Below, piece by piece: positions 3,023 through 32,244 of a stretch of DNA of 64,000 bases. Within the stretch, counting starts at the first letter, position 1. Each line of letters begins with the position of its first letter. Both the position numbers and the translations under genes were made by a program. Location of the stretch: NCBI RefSeq assembly GCF_000003815.2, contig NC_049984.1, positions 19,925,861 through 19,989,860 of the forward strand, written 5' to 3'. Origin of the DNA: Branchiostoma floridae. Its lineage: Eukaryota; Chordata; Leptocardii; Amphioxiformes; Branchiostomatidae. The notes beneath the pieces were generated by a model. It saw nothing but the letters and a program-made list of their open reading frames with translations, was not told where the DNA came from and searched no databases.

Positions 3023-3212
3023 CTACTCTCCAGCAGAGGTTAGGCTCCGGCTGTTTTTAACGTTTTCTTTAGTCGTTTTTATCGGGCTTTCTATTTTGTC
3101 ATTTTTCTTGAAGTTTTGACATAGCAAGATAAAATACAAAATAGAAAGGCCAATAAAAACGACTAAAAATGTTTCAAAAACATCCGGAGCCTAATCTCTG
3201 CTTCGAGAGTAG
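3023..3212. mobile_element. 190 bp hairpin MITE, copy 1
   Basis: Long inverted repeat. Left arm starts CTACTCTCCAGCAGAGG and continues through TTAGGCTCCGG and AGTCGTTTTTAT; the right arm is its reverse complement, ending GCTTCGAGAGTAG. Arms are ~80 bp with a ~30 bp loop. It has no coding capacity, and satellite 1 begins at its right end. Other copies are at 6228-6417 and, as a half copy, about 39011-39090. Confidence 0.8.
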
Positions 3213-5380
3213 GCAGGTGCCGTGACAGGATCAAGAAAAGGAGCTTGTGGTTGCGCCTAAACAGAGTCCGTATACTCAAGAATATCTCGGGAAGGAACCG
3301 TCCGAGTATTTTGCGGTTGTCATCTTTCAATTCCTTACCATTAGACCTTTCCAACCATACCAATGTGCCAAGCCGGAACTTGAACCTTAAGCTACAATCG
3401 CGTTATTTTGTCATCACCCTAGCCGATGCCGTGACAGGTGGTGTTTCAATAAAAGGAGCTAGCGGTTCCGCCAAAACAGGGTCCGTATACTCAAGAAAAT
3501 CTCGGGGAGAATATGTCCGACAGCGCTTTTCCTCTTTCCATCCCTTACTATGGGACCTTTCCAACCATATCAAGTGTGCCGGAACTTGAACCCTAAACTA
3601 CAATCGCGTTATTAAGCCATCGCCGGTGCCATGACAGGCCCAAGAAAAGGAGCTAGCGGTTGCGCCTAAACAGGGTCCGTATACTCAAGAATATCTCGGG
3701 AAGGAAGTGTCCGACATTTTTGCGGTTTTCGTCTTTCAATCCCTTACTATGGGACCCATACCAAGTGTGCCATATCGGAACGAGAACCCTAAAGTACAAT
3801 CGCGTTATTAAGCCATCGCCGGTGCCGTGACAGGCTCAAGAAAAGTAGCTGGCGGTTGCGCCTAAACAGGGTCCGTATACTCAAGAATATCTCGGGAAGG
3901 AAGTATCCGACTATTTTGCTGTTTTCATATTCCGATTCCGTACTATAGGACCTTCCCAACCATATCAAGTGTGTCAGGCCAGAACTTGAACCTTAAGGTA
4001 CAATCGCGTTACTAAGTCATCACCCTAGCCAGTGCCGTGACAGGCGGTGTTTCATGAAAAGGAGCTAGCGGTTGCGCCTAAACAGGGTCCGTATACTCAA
4101 GAATATCTCGGGAAGGAAGTATTCGACTATTTTGCGGTTTTCGTCTTTCCATCCCTTACTATGGGACATTTCCAACCATACCAAGTGTCCAAGGCCGGAA
4201 CTTGAACCCTAAACTACAATCGTGTTATTAAGTCTTCACCCTAGCCGGTGCCGTTACAGGCTAAAGAAAAGGAGCTAGCGGTTCAATCTAAACAGGGTCA
4301 GTATACTCAAGAATATCTCGGGAAGAAAGTATCCGACCATTTTGAAGTTTTCGTCTTTCAATACCTTACTATGGGGCCTTTCCAATCATACCAAGTGTCC
4401 AAGGCCGGAACTTGAACCCTAAACTACAATCGTGTTATTAAGTCATAACCCTACCCGGTGCCGTGACAGACACAAGAAAAGTAGCTGGCGGTTGCGCCTA
4501 CACAGGGTCCGTATACTCAAAAATATCTAGGGAAAGTATCCGACTATTTTTTCGGTTTTCATCTTCCGATTCCTTAATATGGGACCTTTCCAACCATATC
4601 AAGTGTGTCAGGCCAGAACTTGAACCTTAAGATACAATCGCGTTATTAAGTCATCACCCTAGCCAGTGTCGTGACAGGCGGTGTTTCATGAAAAGTAGCT
4701 AGCGGTTGCGCCTAAACAGGGTCAGTATACTCAAGAATATCTCGGGAAGGAAGTATTCGACTATTTTGCGGTTTTCATCTTCTGATTCCTTACTATGGGA
4801 CCTTTCCAACCATACCAAGTGTGCCAGGCCGGAACCTCAATCCTAAACTACAATCGCGTTATTAAGTCATCACCCTAGCCAGTGCCGTGACAGGCTCAAG
4901 AAAAAGAGCGAGTGGTTGCGCCTAAACAGGGTCCGTCTACTCAAGAATATCTCGGGAAGGAAGTATCCGACTATTCTGTGGTTTTCGTCTTTAAATCCCT
5001 TACTATGGGACATGTCTAACCATATCAATTGTGCCAGGCCGGAACTTGAACCCTAAACTACGATCGCGTTATTAAGTCATCACCCTAGCCGGTGCCGTGA
5101 CAGGCACAAGAAAATGAGCGAGCGGTTGAGCCTAAACAGGGTCCGCATACTCAAGAACATCTCGGGAAGAAACTATTCGCCTATTTTGCAGTTTTGATCT
5201 CCGATCCCTTACTATGGGACCTTTCTAACCATACCAAGTGAGCCAGGCCGGAACTTGAACCCTAAACTACAATCGTGTTATTAAGTCTTCACCCTAGCCG
5301 TTGCCATGACAGGCTAAAGAAAAGGAGCTAGCGGTTCAATCTAAACAGGGTCCGTATACGCGAGAATATCTCGGGAAGAA
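3213..5380. repeat. Satellite 1 array, duplicated copy (~210 bp unit)
   Basis: About ten tandem units of roughly 190-217 bp. Recurring landmarks in each unit are GCCGTGACAGGC, AAAAGGAGCTAGCGGTTGCG, GTATACTCAAGAATATCTCG, CCTTACTATGGGACC, AACTTGAACCCTAAACTAC and CGCGTTATTAAGTCATC. The segment is essentially identical to 6418-8585 at a constant offset of 3205 and ends exactly at a gap. ORFs here (for example 3245-3589) are satellite sequence, not genes. Confidence 0.95.
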
Positions 5381-6227: not shown

Positions 6228-6417
6228 CTACTCTCCAAGCAGAGGTTAGGCTCCGGCTGTTTTTACGTTTTCTTTAGTCGTTTTTATCGGGCTTTCTATT
6301 TTGTCATTTTTCTTGAAGTTTTGACATAGCAAGATAAAATACAAAATAGAAAGGCCAATAAAAACGACTAAAAATGTTTCAAAAACATCCGGAGCCTAAT
6401 CTCTGCTTCGAGAGTAG
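6228..6417. mobile_element. 190 bp hairpin MITE, copy 2
   Basis: Same inverted-repeat element as at 3023-3212, with ~80 bp arms CTACTCTCCAAGCAGAGG... and ...GCTTCGAGAGTAG. It sits at the left border of the main satellite 1 array. Confidence 0.8.
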
Positions 6418-9400
6418 GCAGGTGCCGTGACAGGATCAAGAAAAGGAGCTTGTGGTTGCGCCTAAACAGAGTCCGTATACTCAAGAATATCTCGGGAAGG
6501 AACCGTCCGAGTATTTTGCGGTTGTCATCTTTCAATTCCTTACCATTAGACCTTTCCAACCATACCAATGTGCCAAGCCGGAACTTGAACCTTAAGCTAC
6601 AATCGCGTTATTTTGTCATCACCCTAGCCGATGCCGTGACAGGTGGTGTTTCAATAAAAGGAGCTAGCGGTTCCGCCAAAACAGGGTCCGTATACTCAAG
6701 AAAATCTCGGGGAGAATATGTCCGACAGCGCTTTTCCTCTTTCCATCCCTTACTATGGGACCTTTCCAACCATATCAAGTGTGCCGGAACTTGAACCCTA
6801 AACTACAATCGCGTTATTAAGCCATCGCCGGTGCCATGACAGGCCCAAGAAAAGGAGCTAGCGGTTGCGCCTAAACAGGGTCCGTATACTCAAGAATATC
6901 TCGGGAAGGAAGTGTCCGACATTTTTGCGGTTTTCGTCTTTCAATCCCTTACTATGGGACCCATACCAAGTGTGCCATATCGGAACGAGAACCCTAAAGT
7001 ACAATCGCGTTATTAAGCCATCGCCGGTGCCGTGACAGGCTCAAGAAAAGTAGCTGGCGGTTGCGCCTAAACAGGGTCCGTATACTCAAGAATATCTCGG
7101 GAAGGAAGTATCCGACTATTTTGCTGTTTTCATATTCCGATTCCGTACTATAGGACCTTCCCAACCATATCAAGTGTGTCAGGCCAGAACTTGAACCTTA
7201 AGGTACAATCGCGTTACTAAGTCATCACCCTAGCCAGTGCCGTGACAGGCGGTGTTTCATGAAAAGGAGCTAGCGGTTGCGCCTAAACAGGGTCCGTATA
7301 CTCAAGAATATCTCGGGAAGGAAGTATTCGACTATTTTGCGGTTTTCGTCTTTCCATCCCTTACTATGGGACATTTCCAACCATACCAAGTGTCCAAGGC
7401 CGGAACTTGAACCCTAAACTACAATCGTGTTATTAAGTCTTCACCCTAGCCGGTGCCGTTACAGGCTAAAGAAAAGGAGCTAGCGGTTCAATCTAAACAG
7501 GGTCAGTATACTCAAGAATATCTCGGGAAGAAAGTATCCGACCATTTTGAAGTTTTCGTCTTTCAATACCTTACTATGGGGCCTTTCCAATCATACCAAG
7601 TGTCCAAGGCCGGAACTTGAACCCTAAACTACAATCGTGTTATTAAGTCATAACCCTACCCGGTGCCGTGACAGACACAAGAAAAGTAGCTGGCGGTTGC
7701 GCCTACACAGGGTCCGTATACTCAAAAATATCTAGGGAAAGTATCCGACTATTTTTTCGGTTTTCATCTTCCGATTCCTTAATATGGGACCTTTCCAACC
7801 ATATCAAGTGTGTCAGGCCAGAACTTGAACCTTAAGATACAATCGCGTTATTAAGTCATCACCCTAGCCAGTGTCGTGACAGGCGGTGTTTCATGAAAAG
7901 TAGCTAGCGGTTGCGCCTAAACAGGGTCAGTATACTCAAGAATATCTCGGGAAGGAAGTATTCGACTATTTTGCGGTTTTCATCTTCTGATTCCTTACTA
8001 TGGGACCTTTCCAACCATACCAAGTGTGCCAGGCCGGAACCTCAATCCTAAACTACAATCGCGTTATTAAGTCATCACCCTAGCCAGTGCCGTGACAGGC
8101 TCAAGAAAAAGAGCGAGTGGTTGCGCCTAAACAGGGTCCGTCTACTCAAGAATATCTCGGGAAGGAAGTATCCGACTATTCTGTGGTTTTCGTCTTTAAA
8201 TCCCTTACTATGGGACATGTCTAACCATATCAATTGTGCCAGGCCGGAACTTGAACCCTAAACTACGATCGCGTTATTAAGTCATCACCCTAGCCGGTGC
8301 CGTGACAGGCACAAGAAAATGAGCGAGCGGTTGAGCCTAAACAGGGTCCGCATACTCAAGAACATCTCGGGAAGAAACTATTCGCCTATTTTGCAGTTTT
8401 GATCTCCGATCCCTTACTATGGGACCTTTCTAACCATACCAAGTGAGCCAGGCCGGAACTTGAACCCTAAACTACAATCGTGTTATTAAGTCTTCACCCT
8501 AGCCGTTGCCATGACAGGCTAAAGAAAAGGAGCTAGCGGTTCAATCTAAACAGGGTCCGTATACGCGAGAATATCTCGGGAAGAAAGTATCCGACGTTTT
8601 TGCGATTTTCATCTTCCTATCCCTTACTATGGGACCTTTCCATCCATAACAAGTGTGCCAGGCCAGAACTTGAACCCTAAACTACAATCCCGTTATTAAG
8701 TCATCATCCTAGCCGGTGCCGTGACAGACTCCAGAAAAGGAGCTAGCGGTTGCGCTTAAACAGGGACCGTTTACTCAAGAATATCTCGGGAAGAAAGCAT
8801 TCGACATTTTTGCGGTTTTCATCTTCCGATTCCTAATTAAGGGACATTTCCAACCATAACATGTGTGCCAGGCCAGAACTTGAACACTAAGCTACAATCG
8901 CGTTCTTAAGTCATCACCCCAGCCGATGCCGTGACAGGCTCAAGAAAAGGAGCCAGCGGAAGCGCCTAAACAGGGTCCGTATACTCAAGAATATCTCGGG
9001 AAGAAAGTATTCAACTATTTTGCGGTTTTCATCTTCCAATTCCTTATTATGGGACATTTCTAACCATATCATGTGTGCCTGGCCAGAACTTAAACCCTAA
9101 ACTACAATCGCGTTATTAAGTCATCACCCTAGCCGGAGCCGTGACAGGCTCAAGAAAAGGAGCTAGCGGTTGCACCTAAACAGGGTCTGTATAATCAAGA
9201 AGATCTCGGGAAGAAACTATCCGCCTATTTTGCGGTTTTGATCTTGCGATTCCTTACTATGGGACCTTTCCAAAAATACCAAGTGTGCCATGCCGAAACT
9301 TAAACCCTTAAACTACAAACGCGTTATCAAGTCATAACCCTAGCCGGTGCCGTGACAGGCTCAAGAAAAGTAGCTGGCGGTTGCGCCTAAACAGAGTCAG

Positions 9401-12953: not shown

Positions 12954-15159
12954 GGCTCGAAAGCGAATGAAGGTTCGCCTGGGTCGACCGCTAAGCGAAC
13001 CTTTTCGGTAACCGTAAAGCGACCCCAAACGATGAATCTTAAACAAAGTGTGCGTTACTTTCATTACTTGAATTTGATAGTAAAACCCTTGACGATTAGG
13101 CAGAAAGGAATTTGAGTACTAAAAATTACTTCCTTAAATTTCTACAAGGCTCGAAAGCGAATGAAGGTTCGCCTGGGGTAACTGCTAAGCGAACCCTTCG
13201 GTTACCGTAAAGCGACCCAATACGATGGAACTTCCATAATCTTAAACAATATTTGCCTTACTTTCATCAATTGTATTTCACAGTAAACTCGTGACGATTA
13301 GGCAGAAAGCAATTTGAGTACTAAAAATTACTTCATTAAGCTTCTACAAGGCTTGAAAGCGAATGAAGGTTCATCTGGGGTAACCGGTAAATCGCTAAGT
13401 GAACCTTTCGGTAACCGCAAAGCGACTCCATAGGATTGAACTGCCAGAATCTTAAACAAGGTGTAACTTTTTTCATGGCTTGAATTTCATAGTAAAACCC
13501 GTGACGATTAGGCAGAAAGCAATTTGAGTACAATTATTTCCTTACTTTTCTACAAGGCTCGAAAGCGAATGAAGGCTCGACTTTGGTAAACGATAAGCGA
13601 ACCTTTCCAAAGCGACCGCATGCAATGGAACTTCCAGAATCTTAAACAAAGTGTGCGTTGCTTTCATTACTTTAATTTCATATTAAAACCCGTGACGATT
13701 AGGCAGAAAGCAATTTGAGTACTAAAAATTACTTCCTTACATTTCTACAAGGCTCGAAAGCGAATGAAGGTTCGCCTGGGGTAACCGCTAAGCAAACCCT
13801 TCGGTAACGGTAAAGCGACCCCATACGATGGAATTTCCAGAGTCTTAAACAAAGTGTGCGTTACTTTTATCACTTGAATTTCATAGTAAAACTGGTGGCG
13901 ATTAGGCAGAAAGCAATTTGAGTACTAAAAATTACTTCCTTCCCTTTCTACAAGGCTCGAAAGCGAATGAAGGTTCGCCTGGGGTAACCGCTAAGCGAAC
14001 CCTTCGGTAACCGCAAAGCGACCACCTACGGTGGAACTTCCTGAATCTTAAAAAATATATGTGCCTTACTTTTATCACTTGAATTTCATAGTAAAACCCG
14101 TGACGATTAGGTAAAAAGCAATTTGAGTACTAAAAATTACTTCCTTACATTTCTACAAGGCTTGAAAGCGAATGAAGGTTCGCCTGGGGTAACCGGTTAC
14201 ACGCTAAGTGAACCTTTAGGTAACCGCAAAGCGACCCCATACGATGGACCTTCCAGAATCTTAAACAAAGTGTGCGTTACTTTAATTGCTTGAATTTCAT
14301 AGCAAAACCCGTGATGATTAGGCAGAAAGCAATTTGAGTACTCAAAATTACTTACTGACTTTTCTGCAAGGCTCGAAAGCGATGAAGGCTCGACTTTTGT
14401 AACCGCTAAGTGAACCTTTAGGTAACCGCAAAGCGACCCCATGCGATGGAATTTCCGGAATCTTAAACAAAGTGTGCGTTACTTTCATCACTTGAATTTC
14501 ATATTAAAACCCGTGACGATTAGGCAGAAAGCAATTTGAGTACTAAAAATTACTTCCTTCCCTTTCTACAAGGCTCGAAAGCGAATGAAGATTCGCCTGG
14601 GGTAACTGCTAAACGAACCCTTCGGTAACCGCAAAGCGACCCCATACGATGGAACTTCAAGACTCTTAAACGAATCGTGCGTTACTTTCATCACTTGAAT
14701 TCCATAGTAAAATCTATGCCGATTAGGCAGAAAGTAATTTGAGTACTAGAAATTACTTCATAGAATTTCTACAAGGCTGGAAACCAATGAAGTTTCGCCT
14801 CTGGTAACCGCTAAGCAAACTGTTCGGTAACCGGAAAGCGACCACTACGATGGAACTTTCAGAATCTTAAACAAAATGTGCGTTTCTTTCATCACTTGAA
14901 TTTCATAGTAAAACCCGTGACGATTAGGCAGAAAGCAAATTGAGTACTAAAAATTACTTCCTTACTTTTTTATAAGGCTCGAAAGCGAATGAAGGTTCGC
15001 CTTCGTTAACCGCTAAGCGAACCCTTCGGTAACCGCAAAGCGACCTCATACGATGGAATTTCCAGAGTCTTAAACAAAGTGTTCGTTACTTTCATCACTT
15101 GAATTTCATTGTAAAAACCGTGGCAGAATCAAATTTGAGTACTAAAAATTGCTCCATTA
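12954..15159. repeat. Satellite 2 array, left part (~203 bp unit)
   Basis: A second, unrelated tandem family, ~11 units. Landmarks: AAGGCTCGAAAGCGAATGAA, GGTTCGCCTGGGGTAACCGC, CTAAGCGAACC, GTGACGATTAGGCAGAAAGC and AATTTGAGTACTAAAAATTAC. GGTTCGC...GCGAACC can pair as a small hairpin in each unit. The junction with satellite 1 is abrupt, after a run of A at 12945-12952. Confidence 0.95.
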
Positions 15160-20340: not shown

Positions 20341-20535
20341 TTAAAATAATCCAATGAATAGATAAATGTTGAATGAATAGATCAAATGATCTGATGTAGA
20401 TTTCATATCCCAAAATGTATTGGCTTGTTCATGTAAAACCATTGACATTTAATACACCATCAATTGATATTAGTGGCATTAGTTCATGAATCAGTGAATT
20501 GAATTTTTTTAAATGACATTTTTTTCTTGTTTCAG

Positions 20536-21366
20536 ATCATCCTTGCCTTCACTGACTCTATCTGTAAGTATGTCTCCAATCATGGCACCTTCTCTTCTGA
20601 CATTTTTTTTTCCCTTAATGCGCACCCTGGAGCCTCAGTATATGATTTGACTTCTGACATCTCTCGTCACCCTTTTGTTGAGCCTGACCTGGTGTTCTTG
20701 CATGCGGGGACTAACTGTCTTCCCATGCACCGTCCACTCAGCCGGACTCTTGATGATTTCAGTTGCCTTATTTCTGTCACCAAGTCTCGCTTCCCGTCAG
20801 CCTCTGTTGTCATCTCTAGCATCCTGCCTTGGTTTGACTCTGAGGTCTATGACAGGAAGCGGTCTGAGTTAAACTCTCATTTGCTTCGCCTATGTTCTCG
20901 CCAGGGTGTGTTTTTCCTTGACAATGGTAGCCGGGCTCGCCGGGCCATGTTTTCTGTTGATGGTTTACATTTGAGTAGAGCAGGGAACATCAGCTATGCC
21001 AAGTATCTTTCTTTTTCTTTGAGCCACTACCTGCAGCTGCACCGTCGCAGCTGCCAGCATCGCTTTACGTTGAGGGGTGAGGAGTGGCCTGGGTTGGGGA
21101 CGGATGGAGGAAGTGGGAAGAAGGACAAGGAGCATCCAGGAGAGGAGCCGAAGTCAGGGGAGTACCAGGGACAAGTGGAGTGGGCTAGTGTGGTCCGACA
21201 GGGGGGACCTGTAGCTAGGGCGGCCCCAGGGAAGGTAGAGGGGGGTAGTGTGGGGAAGGGACCTTCCCAGCCCAGGGGAGTACCCGTAGTTAGATCGGCC
21301 CCAGGGAAGGTAGAGGGGGGTACCGTGGGGAAGGGACCCCAGCAGTTTAAAAAACTATCGGAGTAA
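20536..21366 (+). CDS. SGNH/GDSL-hydrolase-like ORF, probably terminal exon
   Basis: SGNH-fold esterase-like domain. Visible blocks: ILAFTDS (block I, normally GDS; here the Gly is Thr), LHAGTNCLP (block III, G-x-N) and SVDGLHLSRAG (block V, D-x-x-H), with VVISSILPW between them. After the domain, ~90 residues are Gly/Pro/Lys-rich with two copies of a PGKVEGG.VGKGP repeat, and the ORF ends at TAA. No ATG opens it; a good acceptor (CTTGTTTCAG) precedes codon ATC at 20536. SGNH domains of this sort occur in host genes and in ORF1 of CR1-like retrotransposons, so it could be a LINE ORF1 remnant. The loss of the block I Gly makes activity doubtful. Confidence 0.65.
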   Translation: MILAFTDSICKYVSNHGTFSSDIFFSLNAHPGASVYDLTSDISRHPFVEPDLVFLHAGTNCLPMHRPLSRTLDDFSCLISVTKSRFPSASVVISSILPWFDSEVYDRKRSELNSHLLRLCSRQGVFFLDNGSRARRAMFSVDGLHLSRAGNISYAKYLSFSLSHYLQLHRRSCQHRFTLRGEEWPGLGTDGGSGKKDKEHPGEEPKSGEYQGQVEWASVVRQGGPVARAAPGKVEGGSVGKGPSQPRGVPVVRSAPGKVEGGTVGKGPQQFKKLSE

Positions 21367-23582: not shown

Positions 23583-24030
23583 ACTAGAAAATACCAGCCT
23601 TTCTGTGAGAACGTGATTATTGCTTGTAGATAATAAATGTTCTTCTAGATGATAAGAAAGTTTTTTTGTACAATTATATAAACAGCAAACCCGCTATATT
23701 CCCATGATACGTTACCGGGTAGTGAGGACGCTATGTCGTCGGGATGCCAAGCTGCAAGGCACAGCCAACCGCGAGCGACATACTGGACAGGCCGCCCAGT
23801 ACTAGTCCTCTTACCCTGAACGGGAACACGCCGTAATTATGACCACCAATCTTCGGGGGCATGTACGCAGTCCTCCCGGCGACTGTTGTTTCCTTTCAAA
23901 AGGAGGTTAAATATTTAATTTCCTTGCTTTCAAGTTTCAACGCTACCTCTCCAACATCTTTTTCTGTAACTATCAATCTTCACCTCTGTAAAGAGAGTTC
24001 AGAGAGTTTTCTGAAAAGTAAGCTCAAAGG
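23583..24030. other. no gene seen
   Basis: Mixed sequence after the LINE truncation point. No ORF with recognised content. The tandem repeat begins around 24030. Confidence 0.4.
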
Positions 24031-24583
24031 CAAAGGTAACGGAACGATATCGGTAACATACGATACTACTGGAAAAAATAAACGCTACCTTTCCGACATC
24101 TTTCTTGCACCTGTACATAGCATTTTTTGTGTGTAAAGTGAGCTCAATGGTAACGTAAAGACATTGGAAAGATACCATATGTTCCATGAGGATATTTTGA
24201 TTTTCCTGGTTTCGTCAAACACGCAAACACAGAATGAGTTATTCAGGCGAAGTCGCTACTTTAGTGAGAGGCGCATGTGGTATATTGAGCGGAAAATACT
24301 CGTAATTTGGTAAAAGCAATGCCTCTTTTAAGAATAATAATTAACGCTACCTTTCCGTTTGCACCTATACATTCCAAAAATTGTATCTGCTATATGTAAG
24401 TTTTAACCAGGAGTAAATGTTGCTTATCTTGGTTAAACTCAACACGTTAACACAGCAGGGGCCATTCAGGCGAAGCTGCTGCGTTAGTGAGGGCGCATGT
24501 GGTATATTGAGCGGAAAATAATGCCTCTTCTTCAAACAATAATTAACGCTACCTTTCCGACATCTTTTTTCCACCTATACATA

Positions 24584-24617
24584 AAAGGGGGGAGGTTTGC
24601 TTAAACCTCCCCCCTTT
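24584..24617. repeat. perfect GC-rich palindrome 1
   Basis: AAAGGGGGGAGGTTT, two-base centre, AAACCTCCCCCCTTT. It ends each repeat unit and could extrude as a cruciform or act as a strong RNA hairpin. Confidence 0.9.
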
Positions 24618-24879
24618 CATGTAAAGTCAGCTCAAATGTAACGGAAAGATATCGGAAAGATTGTATCTTTTATATGTAGCTTTCACACAGGAGGAGATTT
24701 GCTTTTCTTGGTTAAACTTAACACGCAAACACAGCAGGAGCTATTCATTTGAAGCCGCTGCTTTAGTGAGCGACGCATGTGGTATATTGAGCGGAAAATA
24801 CTCTTAATTTGGTAAAAGTAATGCCTCTTCTTCAAGTAATGATTAATGCTACCTTTCCGACACCTTTTTTCCACCTATA

Positions 24880-24921
24880 CATAAAAGGGGGGAGGTTTGC
24901 TTAAACCTCCCCCCTTTTATG
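24880..24921. repeat. perfect GC-rich palindrome 2
   Basis: Same palindrome as at 24584, here extended by ACATAAAAGG/CCTTTTATGT arms to ~42 bp. A third, imperfect copy is at ~25180-25213. Confidence 0.9.
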
Positions 24922-25529
24922 TAAAGTCAGCTCAAATGTAACGGAAAGACATCGGAAAGATTATATCTGTTATATGTAGCTTTCACACAAGAGATTTGCT
25001 TTTCTTGGTTAAACTTAACACGCAAACACAGCAGGAGCTATTCATTTGAAGCCGCTGCTTTAGTGAACGACGCATGTGGTATATTGAGCGGAAAATACTC
25101 TTAATTTGGTAAAAGTAATGCCTCTTCTTCAAGTAATGATTAACGCTACCTTTCAGACACCTTTTTTACACCTATACATAAACGGGGGGAGGTTACTTAA
25201 AGCTCCCCCCTTTATGTAAAGTCAGCTCAAATGTAACGGAAAGACATCGGAAAGATTGTATCTGTTATATGTAGCTTTCACACAGGAGATTTGCTTTTCT
25301 TGGTCAAACTTAACACGCAAACACAGCAGGAGCTATTCATTTGAAGCCGCTGCTTTATTGAACGGCGCATGTGGTATATTGAGCGGAAAATACTCTTAAT
25401 TTGGTAAAAGCAATGCCTCTTCTTAAAAATAAACGCTACCATTCCGACATCTTTTTTTGCACCTATACCTAAAGGGGGAGGTCTCCATAGGTCTATAATG
25501 ATAAGAGTATGTAAAATGAGATCAGTCAG

Positions 25530-26419: not shown

Positions 26420-26965
26420 ATTGAGATCAATTGTAACGGATGGGCAATGAAAAGATATTGATCATCTCCTATTGGCAATTTCCACCTTAGAGAGCCACGA
26501 AAATAAAAAAAAGGCGAAGGTCAACTGATTGTATGTGAACGTATGGTCGGTTCAAAGCCTGTAGATGTTTTCTGTACATAAGCAATACCCGTTTCATATA
26601 CGGCACATATAAGGATGCTTAAAGGTTATGTAAATATATTACATGTATTTAATCTGCCTTAACGAATACGGAAAGGTTACGGAAATGTAAAACCATGGTT
26701 TCCGTGGTCTTTACGATGCCGTAAACTCTGCGGAAATATTTTCCCACCTTTAGGCTACATTTAAGTATCTCGGAAAGTATGCTTAAATATTCGTTTTTGT
26801 GCTGTGGATGGGAAAATGAGAGCGGGATAAAGATAGGGAGTGATTTGAAAGAGTTAACAGGGAGAGGAAAGGAGCGAAAAGATACCTTTGGAAAGTATCA
26901 TAGTAGGGAGGCACTAGGGGACAGGAAAGGAAAGGCTTCAAAGCCAGAGAGGGCGAAGGCGGAAG
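26420..26965. other. no gene seen
   Basis: AT-rich, with several GGAAAGGTTACGG-like words resembling those in the 24 kb repeat. No recognised coding. Confidence 0.4.
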
Positions 26966-27025
26966 ACGATTTCCGCATCACTTCATAACGGAGGGGTCGA
27001 GGACTAATTCAGGACAAATAGGATA
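26966..27025. repeat. direct repeat, left copy (unfilled site)
   Basis: GACGATTTCCGCATCACTTC through GGACAAATAGGATACTATAT. The same ~65 bp occur at 28476-28540. This copy has GGATACT once and no palindrome, so it serves as the empty-site comparison. Confidence 0.85.
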
Positions 27026-27130
27026 CTATATAACCTAATTACTCATTGGTCCCGAAGGTTAACCTTTGACCCCACAGTGCTAAGAGATGTCAAACTGTCA
27101 GTCCTCCTGTGGCCCTCCGGCTACGTCTGG

Positions 27131-28478
27131 AGCCTGAAGCGAACCACCCTTCCAGCCCTCGACAAGTTTTCTGCTTTGCGCGGATTTTGGACGCCCGCTT
27201 AAGGAGGGTCTACATGGGGGGTCTTGGTAACGCTTAACGGTGAATTCAGGAGGCCCGGTAATGGTTAACGGTAAATTCAGGAGGTCCGGTAACGCTTAAC
27301 GGTAAATTCAGAAGTAGTTACAAAACATAACACCGTTGAAAGTATCATTGACGTGCATTCCTATTCATACAACGCTAGAGTAGTTATATCAATGGGGGAA
27401 AATATCCGACTAATGACAAAGCAAAAGGTGCCCAGACCCCGGAGGAATGACATTGTCCATGACATCTGTAAATTGACGGAGGCAGATCTAGAGTTCCCGG
27501 CCCGCCACAGAGACGGCGGCAGCAAATTTCTTACGGGGGGATTGAACTATTGTTTCAGCACATGGAGCGCCGAAGGCGCGACGCATCCCAGGGGGGTCCG
27601 GGGGTATGCTCCCCCGGGAAAATTTTAAAATCAAGACCCTCTTAAATGCTGTTTCCTGCATTTTCGGCAATTTTTGCCGACAGACTAAGCTAGGTTGATT
27701 TTGACATTTTCATCAAATTAGACAATGATGATAGCGTTGGCCTCCACCCTCAGAGCCCCCGACATATTTTACCATTTCGAGCTCAGAAGGCACGAGACGT
27801 TGCAATATAAGTCCGGGAAAATTAAAATCTGGACCGTCTGAAACGCCATTTACTGCATTTTGAGGGACACATTTTGCTATAGGACGAAGCTAAATTAAAT
27901 GACATTTTATTAGAAAGAAAAGTTTTGTTGTGCCTACCCACGCCCCTAACATATTTTCACCATGTCATCGTGAGCGCCAAAGGCGCCAGCCGTCGCAAGG
28001 AAGGTCCGGAGAAACGCTCATTTTCTGCATTCTAGGAGTACTTTTTGCCCGAAACTAAGCTAAGTTTACATTGAAATCTGTATGAGTGATAAAGTTTTTG
28101 AGGGCGACGCTTCCGAAACATATTTTACCCTGTCCAGAGCCGAAGGCCGGGAGGCTTTGAATCTGGACCATTTGAAACGCTATTTCCTGCATTTTCCGGG
28201 GTTCTATCTGGCATTTGACTTCGTGTGTATAACGGGTTACGAAGAATTTCTTGGTAACGCTTAACGGTGAATTCAGGATAACAAATAACGGTTAACGTTG
28301 AATTAAAACGACCAATAACGCTTCACGAAGAATATACCGATAACGATTAACGTTAAATTAGAGAGGGTCGGTAACGATTAACGGTTAATTAAAATGGCTC
28401 GTAACGCTTAACGGAAAAAGGCATGCAGACCCTCCTTAAGGCGGTCGTCTCAGCGCATAGGTGACTTTAGGCTCCAGA
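27131..28478. mobile_element. composite TIR repeat element
   Basis: Ends carry inverted CGTCTGGAGCCT (27131) and AGGCTCCAGACG (~28467-28478), followed inward by imperfect inverted TTAAGGAGGGTCTxCATG / CATGCAGACCCTCCTTAA. Both shoulders contain tandem GGTAACGCTTAACGGTGAATTC words (27227-27312 and 28250-28420). No transposase ORF. Direct repeats flank it, so it may be a nested MITE. Exact ends are uncertain. Confidence 0.55.
27560..28230. repeat. decayed ~200 bp tandem repeat, 4 units
   Basis: Units start near 27564, 27775, 27970 and 28135 with CGCCGAAGGCG-like sequence. Each continues with GGTCCGG, AAAATCTGGACC, GAAACGC.ATTT.CTGCATTTT and GACTAAGCTAAGTT. The ORFs over it are not genes. Confidence 0.75.
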
Positions 28479-28532
28479 CGATTTCCGCATCACTTCATAA
28501 CGGAGGGGCCGAGGACTAATTCAGGACAAATA

Positions 28533-28570
28533 GGATACTCAAGGAGGTTATATAACCTCCTTGGGATACT
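28533..28570. mobile_element. 24 bp palindromic micro-insertion with 7 bp TSD
   Basis: A perfect palindrome, CAAGGAGGTTAT/ATAACCTCCTTG (28540-28563), is flanked by GGATACT on both sides (28533-28539, 28564-28570). The paralogous copy at ~27020 has one GGATACT and no palindrome. The insertion with target duplication is therefore read directly from the sequence. Confidence 0.75.
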
Positions 28571-29463
28571 ATTTGAATACTAATAACCCATTGAATGTAT
28601 TACTGGGGGATTTAGAGAGTGAAAGTCCTGTGACGTCAACGTCTAATGTTGTTATCTTGTTACCAAAAATGTTCATCTATAGAAATCGCGGCATCAAAAA
28701 TGTCTATCAATAAGTTATTACCTTCATTAAGTACGCTCACAGCATGGCAAAAAGTATAGCCACACGCTATAACAAATTGTATTTACACACCAGTAACTGG
28801 GACCCTCGAGCTCTGTATTCTTTTTGAATGCCACATTATCATTGCCAGCACAACTGTATTGTACATGTCTTACCTTTGTTTGGTATATTAATAAAGTGAA
28901 AAAATGGTTGTGCTACAAAGGGAGTCTGTTTGGTGGAGTATCCGACTCCCACTGACCTTTTATAATCCTAACCTCTGTAAAAAAAAAAAAAAAAACTGCC
29001 TCTGTAGAGACTCTACCTTTGATTGTATAAACTTGGTACAAAGTGGACTATAAACTCCAGTCGACTTCGCTCTTGTTGTTTTCTTAGATTCATACTGTAT
29101 GCAATCATTTGGCCATTAAAAAAAATAATTATTTGCGCGCTCGCATCAGATTTGGCGTTCCGCGGATGGCATCCATATATTGAAATCAACATGGCCTTAC
29201 GTGTATCGAGTTTTTTTAAAGAGCGGTACCTCGAAAAACCCCTATGTAACCCTCGGTGCGTTGTACACGTCATCATCATGCCGCCACCGAATACCCTCCC
29301 CAGACGAAATATACACATGCGCCGCCATAAAATAGTGCAGCCAAAATGGAACGTGCAATTGATGTGCGGTTTCATTTGATGCTTTTGTTTATCTTTGACT
29401 ATTAAATGATTTTTGGGGGGTAATTTTGACGATGTAAGCTGAATGAAAGTGTTTCATTTAAAG
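28571..29463. other. no firm gene; poly-A tract
   Basis: AATAAAGTG at ~28890 and an 18-base A run at ~28979 could be a retroposed 3' end. ORFs on both strands at 29013-29379 are mirror images without domain features. Confidence 0.35.
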
Positions 29464-32204: not shown

Positions 32205-32244
32205 ATACAATCAAGGAGGTTAAAAATCACCTCCTTGATACAAT
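32205..32244. mobile_element. 26 bp palindromic micro-insertion with 7 bp TSD
   Basis: Arms CAAGGAGGT (32212-32220) and ACCTCCTTG (32229-32237) with an 8-base centre, flanked by ATACAAT at 32205-32211 and 32238-32244. Same arms as the element at 28540 but with a different target. Confidence 0.75.

Follow-up and report, generated by a model that had tools for sequence, protein, structure and literature searches.

Short palindromes of the amphioxus genome as probable excision scars of P-superfamily DNA transposons

The window, i.e. the whole stretch of 64,000 nucleotides of Branchiostoma floridae DNA that was analysed (G000:C6:19925861-19989860), forms part of a searched genome of 513,431,437 bases. 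Two of its open frames (3167-3589 and 6372-6794), located 3,205 bp apart and with an identical translation of 140 aa, reflect a local duplication and lie close to a gap (N), and a further open frame (20503-21366) encodes a GDSL-like lipase/acylhydrolase domain (PF13472) and is possibly part of a retrotransposon. No relatives of two RT proteins of the window were found in viral contigs. The region 24111-25470 is occupied by a tandem array of units of approximately 295 bp, several of which incorporate a hairpin of 34 bp, for example AAAGGGGGGAGGTTTGCTTAAACCTCCCCCCTTT, absent from the first unit. Between two paralogous blocks (Table 1) lies a non-coding-looking stretch of 1,233 bp (27203-28435), bounded by TTAA copies (27199-27202 and 28436-28439), with the inverted ends GGAGGGTCT...AGACCCTCC and internal GGTAACGCTTAACGG repeats near both ends. 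It has the appearance of a non-autonomous DNA transposon of the TTAA type.

The downstream paralogous block contains a perfect palindrome of 24 bp between two copies of GGATACT, exactly as described in an earlier note made from the letters of the window. The palindrome is composed of two ends, CAAGGAGGTT, which overlap at ATAT. The note had also presented the upstream block, with its single GGATACT, as the empty site of an insertion. This holds for the left side, where 63 of 64 bases match between the two blocks, but the right of GGATACT is ragged, with a weaker alignment over only about 20 bp. Furthermore, TATATAACCT, located to the right of GGATACT in the palindrome-free block, represents a 10-bp match to the middle of the palindrome, and the alignment scores of the empty-site and filled readings are 124 and 118, respectively. 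Judging from the alignment, the upstream block is probably an unoccupied site, though an unclean one, and as such supports insertion.

Table 1. Coordinates of the palindromes and paralogous blocks of the window, and of the full-length elements and their genes. Positions without a prefix refer to the window.
Feature	Position	Strand	Basis	Sequence or description
Left target site duplication	28533-28539	.	window sequence	GGATACT, 7 bp
Perfect palindrome, read as excision scar	28540-28563	.	sequence, window scan, 42 exact genome places	CAAGGAGGTTATATAACCTCCTTG, 24 bp
Right target duplication copy	28564-28570	.	window sequence	GGATACT, 7 bp
Block holding the 24-bp palindrome	28476-28594	+	alignment to paralogous block	
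Paralogous block without palindrome	26964-27049	+	alignment	probable unoccupied site, unclean
Second putative scar, left target duplication	32205-32211	.	looser window scan	ATACAAT
Second putative scar	32212-32237	.	window scans	CAAGGAGGTTAAAAATCACCTCCTTG
Second putative scar, right target duplication	32238-32244	.	looser window scan	ATACAAT
Third putative scar, left target duplication	23893-23899	.	arm-seeded scan	CTTTCAA
Third putative scar	23900-23926	.	arm-seeded scan	AAGGAGGTTAAATATTTAATTTCCTTG, decayed, outer C missing on left
Third putative scar, right target duplication	23927-23933	.	arm-seeded scan	CTTTCAA
C19 element	C19:10308832-10317273			8,442 bp; flanking copies of CTCTAAC; inverted repeat CAAGGAGCTTTTATCAGGAGGAGAGAGCAAG, 31 bp, perfect
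C11 element	C11:17071456-17080139			8,684 bp; flanking copies of AAGTCAT; inverted repeat CAAGGAGGTTGAATAAGGGAAAGGAGTCGGCTCATAAT, 38 bp, perfect
Predicted P-type transposase gene	L116 2192-4495, 6090-6470	+	Pfam	PF21787, PF21789, PF12560
Predicted P-type transposase gene	L117 3797-5833, 5448-6209	-	Pfam	PF21787; PF12560 in overlapping frame
Second convergent gene (putative)	L116 7174-8262 with L158 436-786; L159 4661-5053	- with -; +	weak Pfam	

Using a strict scan for near-palindromes with no more than one mismatch among the 9-10 outermost pairs, in elements of up to about 90 bp abutted by exact direct repeats of at least 4 bp, only the 24-bp palindrome and the stretch at 32212-32237 (the latter in two registers) could be distinguished in the whole window, and six order-2 Markov shuffles of the window yielded zero elements. 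When looser criteria were applied (elements of 20-600 bp with 10-bp inverted ends and an exact 7-bp repeat), both palindromes and one stretch of 196 bp (14546-14741) were recovered, with zero or one element found per shuffle in ten shuffles. The 196-bp stretch is bounded by two copies of AGTACTA, has inverted ends of 10 bp that are nearly perfect, and may be a DNA element or the product of chance. When the scan was seeded with the arms and three mismatches were allowed per arm, five matches were found in the window, compared to 0-3 in twelve shuffles. The third copy (23900-23926) comes from this loose scan and is thus less secure taken alone. The second copy may be read as approximately 18 nt of one end followed by 8-9 nt of the other, on the basis of a scar at C4:12024207 with CAAGGAGGTTAAAAATCA at one end in the minus-strand reading. 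Both arms are exact in only one of the three window copies.

Across the genome, the 24-mer occurs at 42 exact places and at 251 places with two mismatches or fewer, and the exact arms CAAGGAGGTT/AACCTCCTTG are found with a gap of 0-30 bp at 1,535 places, with zero places for the reversed-pattern controls. As both arms had to be exact, the latter number represents a lower bound on the scar total, and with decayed-arm copies included the family is perhaps several times 1,500, extrapolating from the single exact-armed copy among the three of the window. The first 40 listed of the 1,535 places, one of which duplicates another, constitute the sample for flank and interior analysis. Exact flanking repeats are present at 27 of these (26 of 7 bp and one of 8 bp), and the remaining thirteen include ten with one mismatch in seven and three with neither, as compared to a 7-bp repeat in 2/1,560 pairs of the swapped-flank control. 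Twenty-five of the 42 exact 24-mers were fetched, and 17 of these have exact 7- or 8-bp repeats, with eight copies of one insertion (L053, L054, L056, L057, L059, L060, L072 and L074) included in the 25. The insertion with a 7-bp target duplication proposed in the earlier note, which was to be checked by the finding of many genome copies with 7-bp repeats above a control, is borne out by these duplications. The target motif is itself palindromic, TTN-GTNWNAC-NAA. The duplication has T at its position 2 in 48/74 and A at its position 6 in 60/74 contexts (strands unpooled), and duplicates may be present among these contexts. Viral and prokaryote contigs also contain hairpins built from the same arms, which is compatible with the palindrome being a chance or functional (e.g. 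terminator-like) hairpin with accidental flanking repeats. However, none of the 36 distinct hairpins in those contigs has a flanking repeat of 3 bp or more (2 bp in four), and this, along with the empty shuffles of the strict scan and the frequency of exact repeats in the amphioxus sample, renders such an origin almost inconceivable.

The interiors of the 40 sampled copies vary widely, with between 0 bp (20 bp in total) and 26 bp separating the arms. The inverted repeat extends perfectly for a further 2-9 bp per side in 23/40 copies, with extensions of the types ATATTC, ATATC, AAAGAA, AAAAAAG, GAAAAAGG, GAAAGA and TTATCA, and the perfect arms are 10-19 nt long in the sample and 26 nt long in L120. 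Read as a trimmed left end and a trimmed right end, nine of the interiors overlap (microhomology), two are blunt and 29 contain at least 1 nt of filler, the last class being over-counted since the arm library was drawn from the same sample. The 24-mer corresponds to the product of two tails ending ...GGTTATAT joined over ATAT, and the 20-mer to that of tails ending ...GGTTAA joined over TTAA. The filler of elements of 40 bp or more (n = 43; arm words and low-complexity words excluded) has 10-nt words in common with its own flank in 9/43 cases, as compared to 19/1,806 swapped pairs (p 4e-9). For 9-nt and 8-nt words these values are 12/43 against 59/1,806 and 16/43 against 151/1,806, respectively. 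The target copy recurs between arm pieces in L138, L151 and L157, and the matching flank of L132 itself contains a second arm. A later tandem duplication is a possible alternative source of the flank copies in L118, L122 and L139. Since a moving element could not know its new flank beforehand, filler that copies its own flank argues against movement and for repair which copied nearby DNA.

The P-type RNase H domain (PF21787) is found at no fewer than three places in the genome, two of which fall within complete elements (the C19 and C11 elements; E-values 8.6e-22 and 6.5e-21). The terminal inverted repeats of both begin with CAAGGAG(G/C)TT, and both elements combine features of the P superfamily, namely a P-type RNase H, a 7-bp duplication and inverted repeats beginning with CA. 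Both furthermore encode the RAG1 importin-binding stretch (RAG1_imp_bd, PF12560; 7.1e-8 and 7.2e-10). In the C19 element this stretch shares one open frame with PF21787, and in the C11 element the two domains are in overlapping frames. PF21789 (3e-8) is encoded by an exon further downstream in the C19 element. In the pieces scanned of the multi-exon transposase gene, Pfam analysis identified RAG1_imp_bd, with THAP absent, and no PDB sequence was matched by the C19 transposase frame at E 0.01. The end pair CAAGGAG/CTCCTTG is absent from 9.9 kb around the third PF21787 locus (L160). A pairing of single arms in L117, 682 bp in length, was considered as an element and ruled out, as its flanks mismatch. 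On the basis of weak Pfam matches to a C2H2 finger, a second gene of convergent orientation is apparently present in both full elements, and the gene spanning L116 7174-8262 and L158 includes a stretch of 362 aa without a Pfam match.

The search for a full element with the same termini, suggested in the earlier note, thus gave two elements with CAAGGAG(G/C)TT ends but none with the ATAT arms seen in the palindrome. The arm types ATATTC (that of the scar at 28540-28563), AAAGAA and AAAAAAG have no parent among the two complete elements found. Remnants of parent ends are present in other copies. For example, L130 contains 55 nt which align to the C11 end at 89% identity, and retains 12 nt of the other end as well as exact GTCTGTT copies. 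Parent-end stretches are also found inside the scars at L149 (33 nt), L120 (28 and 26 nt) and L141 (26 nt), and a recurring 31-bp scar, CAAGGAGCTTTTATCAGGTAAAAGCTCCTTG, opens with nucleotides 1-18 of the C19 element. Within 266 kb of DNA from the same genome (the window and L052-L075, around exact 24-mers), all CAAGGAG...CTCCTTG pairs flanked by an exact 7- or 8-bp repeat were 106 bp or shorter, and scars thus vastly outnumber known parents. Fifteen unpaired arms occur in the same 266 kb; seven belong to one repeat (CAAGGAGCTTCC), and no parent end was demonstrated among the fifteen.

The palindrome is very probably the excision scar of a P-superfamily transposon with CAAGGAG(G/C)TT ends, left where the element was cut out and the donor site was sealed by end joining. 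The variable interiors, the flank-copied inserts, the P-type parents and the anatomy of Drosophila P footprints (see below) all point to such a scar rather than to a transposed 24-bp element, and two target copies enclose remnants of both inverted ends in 27/40 sampled copies, in which both 10-bp arms are present by selection. The 24-bp scar would presumably derive from a relative of the C19 and C11 elements, and most of the sampled palindromes, drawn from more than 1,500 exact-armed ones, look like P-type excision scars as well. Alternatively, the palindromes could be mobile themselves, as end-only miniatures of 20-50 bp moved in trans by a P-type transposase, each with its own 7-bp duplication. 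The existence of the target duplications and of a target motif is compatible with mobility, as are identical interiors at differing duplications (e.g. the 24-mer at its 42 exact places), a 33-mer which occurs twice within the 40-place sample (L090 and L103) and the lack of a longer parent element in the 266 kb. Against this, interiors vary widely and arms are unequal, fillers are copied from the local flank, and some copies retain 26-55 nt of a parent end. The interiors that do recur are of the kind that would be favoured by short self-complementary microhomology, and 20 bp is likely too short to accommodate two end complexes. Mobile miniatures are therefore improbable, and the claim in the earlier note that the 24-bp palindrome was itself inserted is not supported. 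The variable interiors, the unequal arms, the local-flank inserts and the 8-kb P-type elements agree better with the insertion and later excision of a longer element. The puzzle that the palindrome leaves no room for transposase-binding sites is answered by excision, as a scar needs none.

The formation of the scar may be envisaged as follows. A P-superfamily DNA transposon with CAAGGAG(G/C)TT inverted ends would have inserted at GGATACT, with duplication of the 7 bp, and would later have been cut out by its own transposase. The second strand would presumably be cut at an inset position within each end, as in Drosophila P, so that single-stranded tails, consisting of the outermost nucleotides of each end, stay at the donor site. 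The tails would then be trimmed by end joining, annealed at a short microhomology, in this case the self-complementary ATAT, and sealed, giving a product in the order target copy, left end, right end and target copy. Such a join is palindromic, as the ends are inverted copies of each other.

Scars of this kind are already known from Drosophila, where the P transposase makes its second-strand cut 17 bp inside the inverted repeat (PMC7776569). The end-joined donor sites given in Table 1 of PMC2895639, from Rad51-deficient (spn-A) flies, include acccagacCATGATGAAATAAC(AT)GTTATTTCATCATGacccagac, recovered in 14 isolates, as well as templated insertions. As in the amphioxus copies, the Drosophila footprints reported there consist of a target copy, an end remnant, a microhomology or templated filler, an end remnant and a target copy, and a perfect palindrome is the most frequent of the joins at short microhomologies (PMC2895639). 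The Drosophila P footprints differ in their 8-bp duplications, 17-nt tails and origin by induced excision in laboratory Rad51-deficient flies, whereas the amphioxus scars have 7-bp duplications, are natural and are found at more than 1,500 exact-armed places in one genome. Some amphioxus arms also exceed the 17 nt of Drosophila P, as with the 26 nt of L120.

Most products recovered from wild-type flies are described in PMC2895639 as the outcome of incomplete repair synthesis followed by end joining. It could thus be argued that the amphioxus palindromes are internal-deletion derivatives, formed by interrupted gap repair in which the sister was copied before end joining, and not by direct joining of tails. 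The unequal end remnants of L130 (12 nt and about 55 nt) are in keeping with this. However, interrupted gap repair would be expected to produce a long tail of sizes, and a sharp size bound is observed instead, with only 64 genome places (reversed control 0) for the same exact arms at a gap of 31-61 bp against the 1,535 at 0-30 bp. Exact 7-bp repeats flank 22 of the 40 fetched out of these 64 long elements, and several of the longer copies consist of repeated arms or copied flank. Interrupted gap repair is accordingly a highly improbable source of the palindromes. If they are instead scars of directly joined tails, such joining would be commoner in the amphioxus genome than in wild-type flies, given the predominance of repair-synthesis products reported for the latter (PMC2895639). 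Excision would then usually be sealed by microhomology or templated joining and rarely restored from a template, and the genomic trace of these transposons would for this reason consist almost entirely of scars.

Several other systems share features with the amphioxus family. The RAG1-like stretch of both full-length elements brings to mind N-RAG-TP, which occurs in lancelets. Like N-RAG-TP, which is described as a transposon coding for a RAG1 N-terminal-like stretch (PMC8355894), the amphioxus elements encode PF12560, in their case alongside a P-type RNase H, the likeness being one of description and not of compared sequences. Galileo, a member of the P superfamily, duplicates 7 or 8 bp at its palindromic target motif GTANTAC, with an extra signal just outside (PMC4168063). 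The amphioxus copies are similar in the 7-bp (sometimes 8-bp) duplication, the GT...AC within it and the informative positions 2-3 bases outside, but these positions are left T and right A here as opposed to left A and right T in Galileo (PMC4168063). The end sequences differ, and the likeness is one of duplication and motif layout. MITEs, including the amphioxus LanceletTn named in PMC5802833, resemble the palindromes in being short, non-coding and numerous, with inverted repeats and target duplications. The palindromes lack the common interior of MITEs, although some interiors recur (e.g. the 24-mer), and further differ in their size of about 20-50 bp and their flank-copied fillers, a comparison which concerns MITEs in general.

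In the open-licence literature, a genome-wide excision-scar family appears in no title or abstract among the matches listed. The sole match to the 12-nt palindrome half is unrelated, and the matches listed for the 10-nt halves are apparently unrelated primer or sequence mentions. A natural genome-wide scar family with complete parents that carry a RAG1 stretch is thus unnamed among the literature matches listed. That the whole interspersed family consists of independent end-joining P-type scars which never transposed in that form, some of them from parents with a RAG1 N-terminal-like domain, is a reading we favour with some reservation. Knowledge of the footprints left by transposon excision comes mostly from single events in the laboratory. 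Here, footprints would form a countable repeat family within one genome, with their ends, target duplications and structurally complete parents known, and would provide natural data on the germline sealing of staggered breaks, including tail length, microhomology and templated insertions, over evolutionary time. As the parents encode a RAG1 N-terminal-like stretch together with a P-type transposase, they also bear on the origin of this part of RAG1. Annotation may label such scars as miniature transposons, against which a warning is in order. If the interpretation is correct, each scar represents a single germline repair event and is in principle datable. At the eight loci listed above as copies of one insertion, a palindromic scar (CTTTCAC/GTGAAAG) is located inside a larger repeat that carries it, and the scar is thus older than the spread of that repeat. 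A second scar, of 31 bp, is also present at six of these eight loci.
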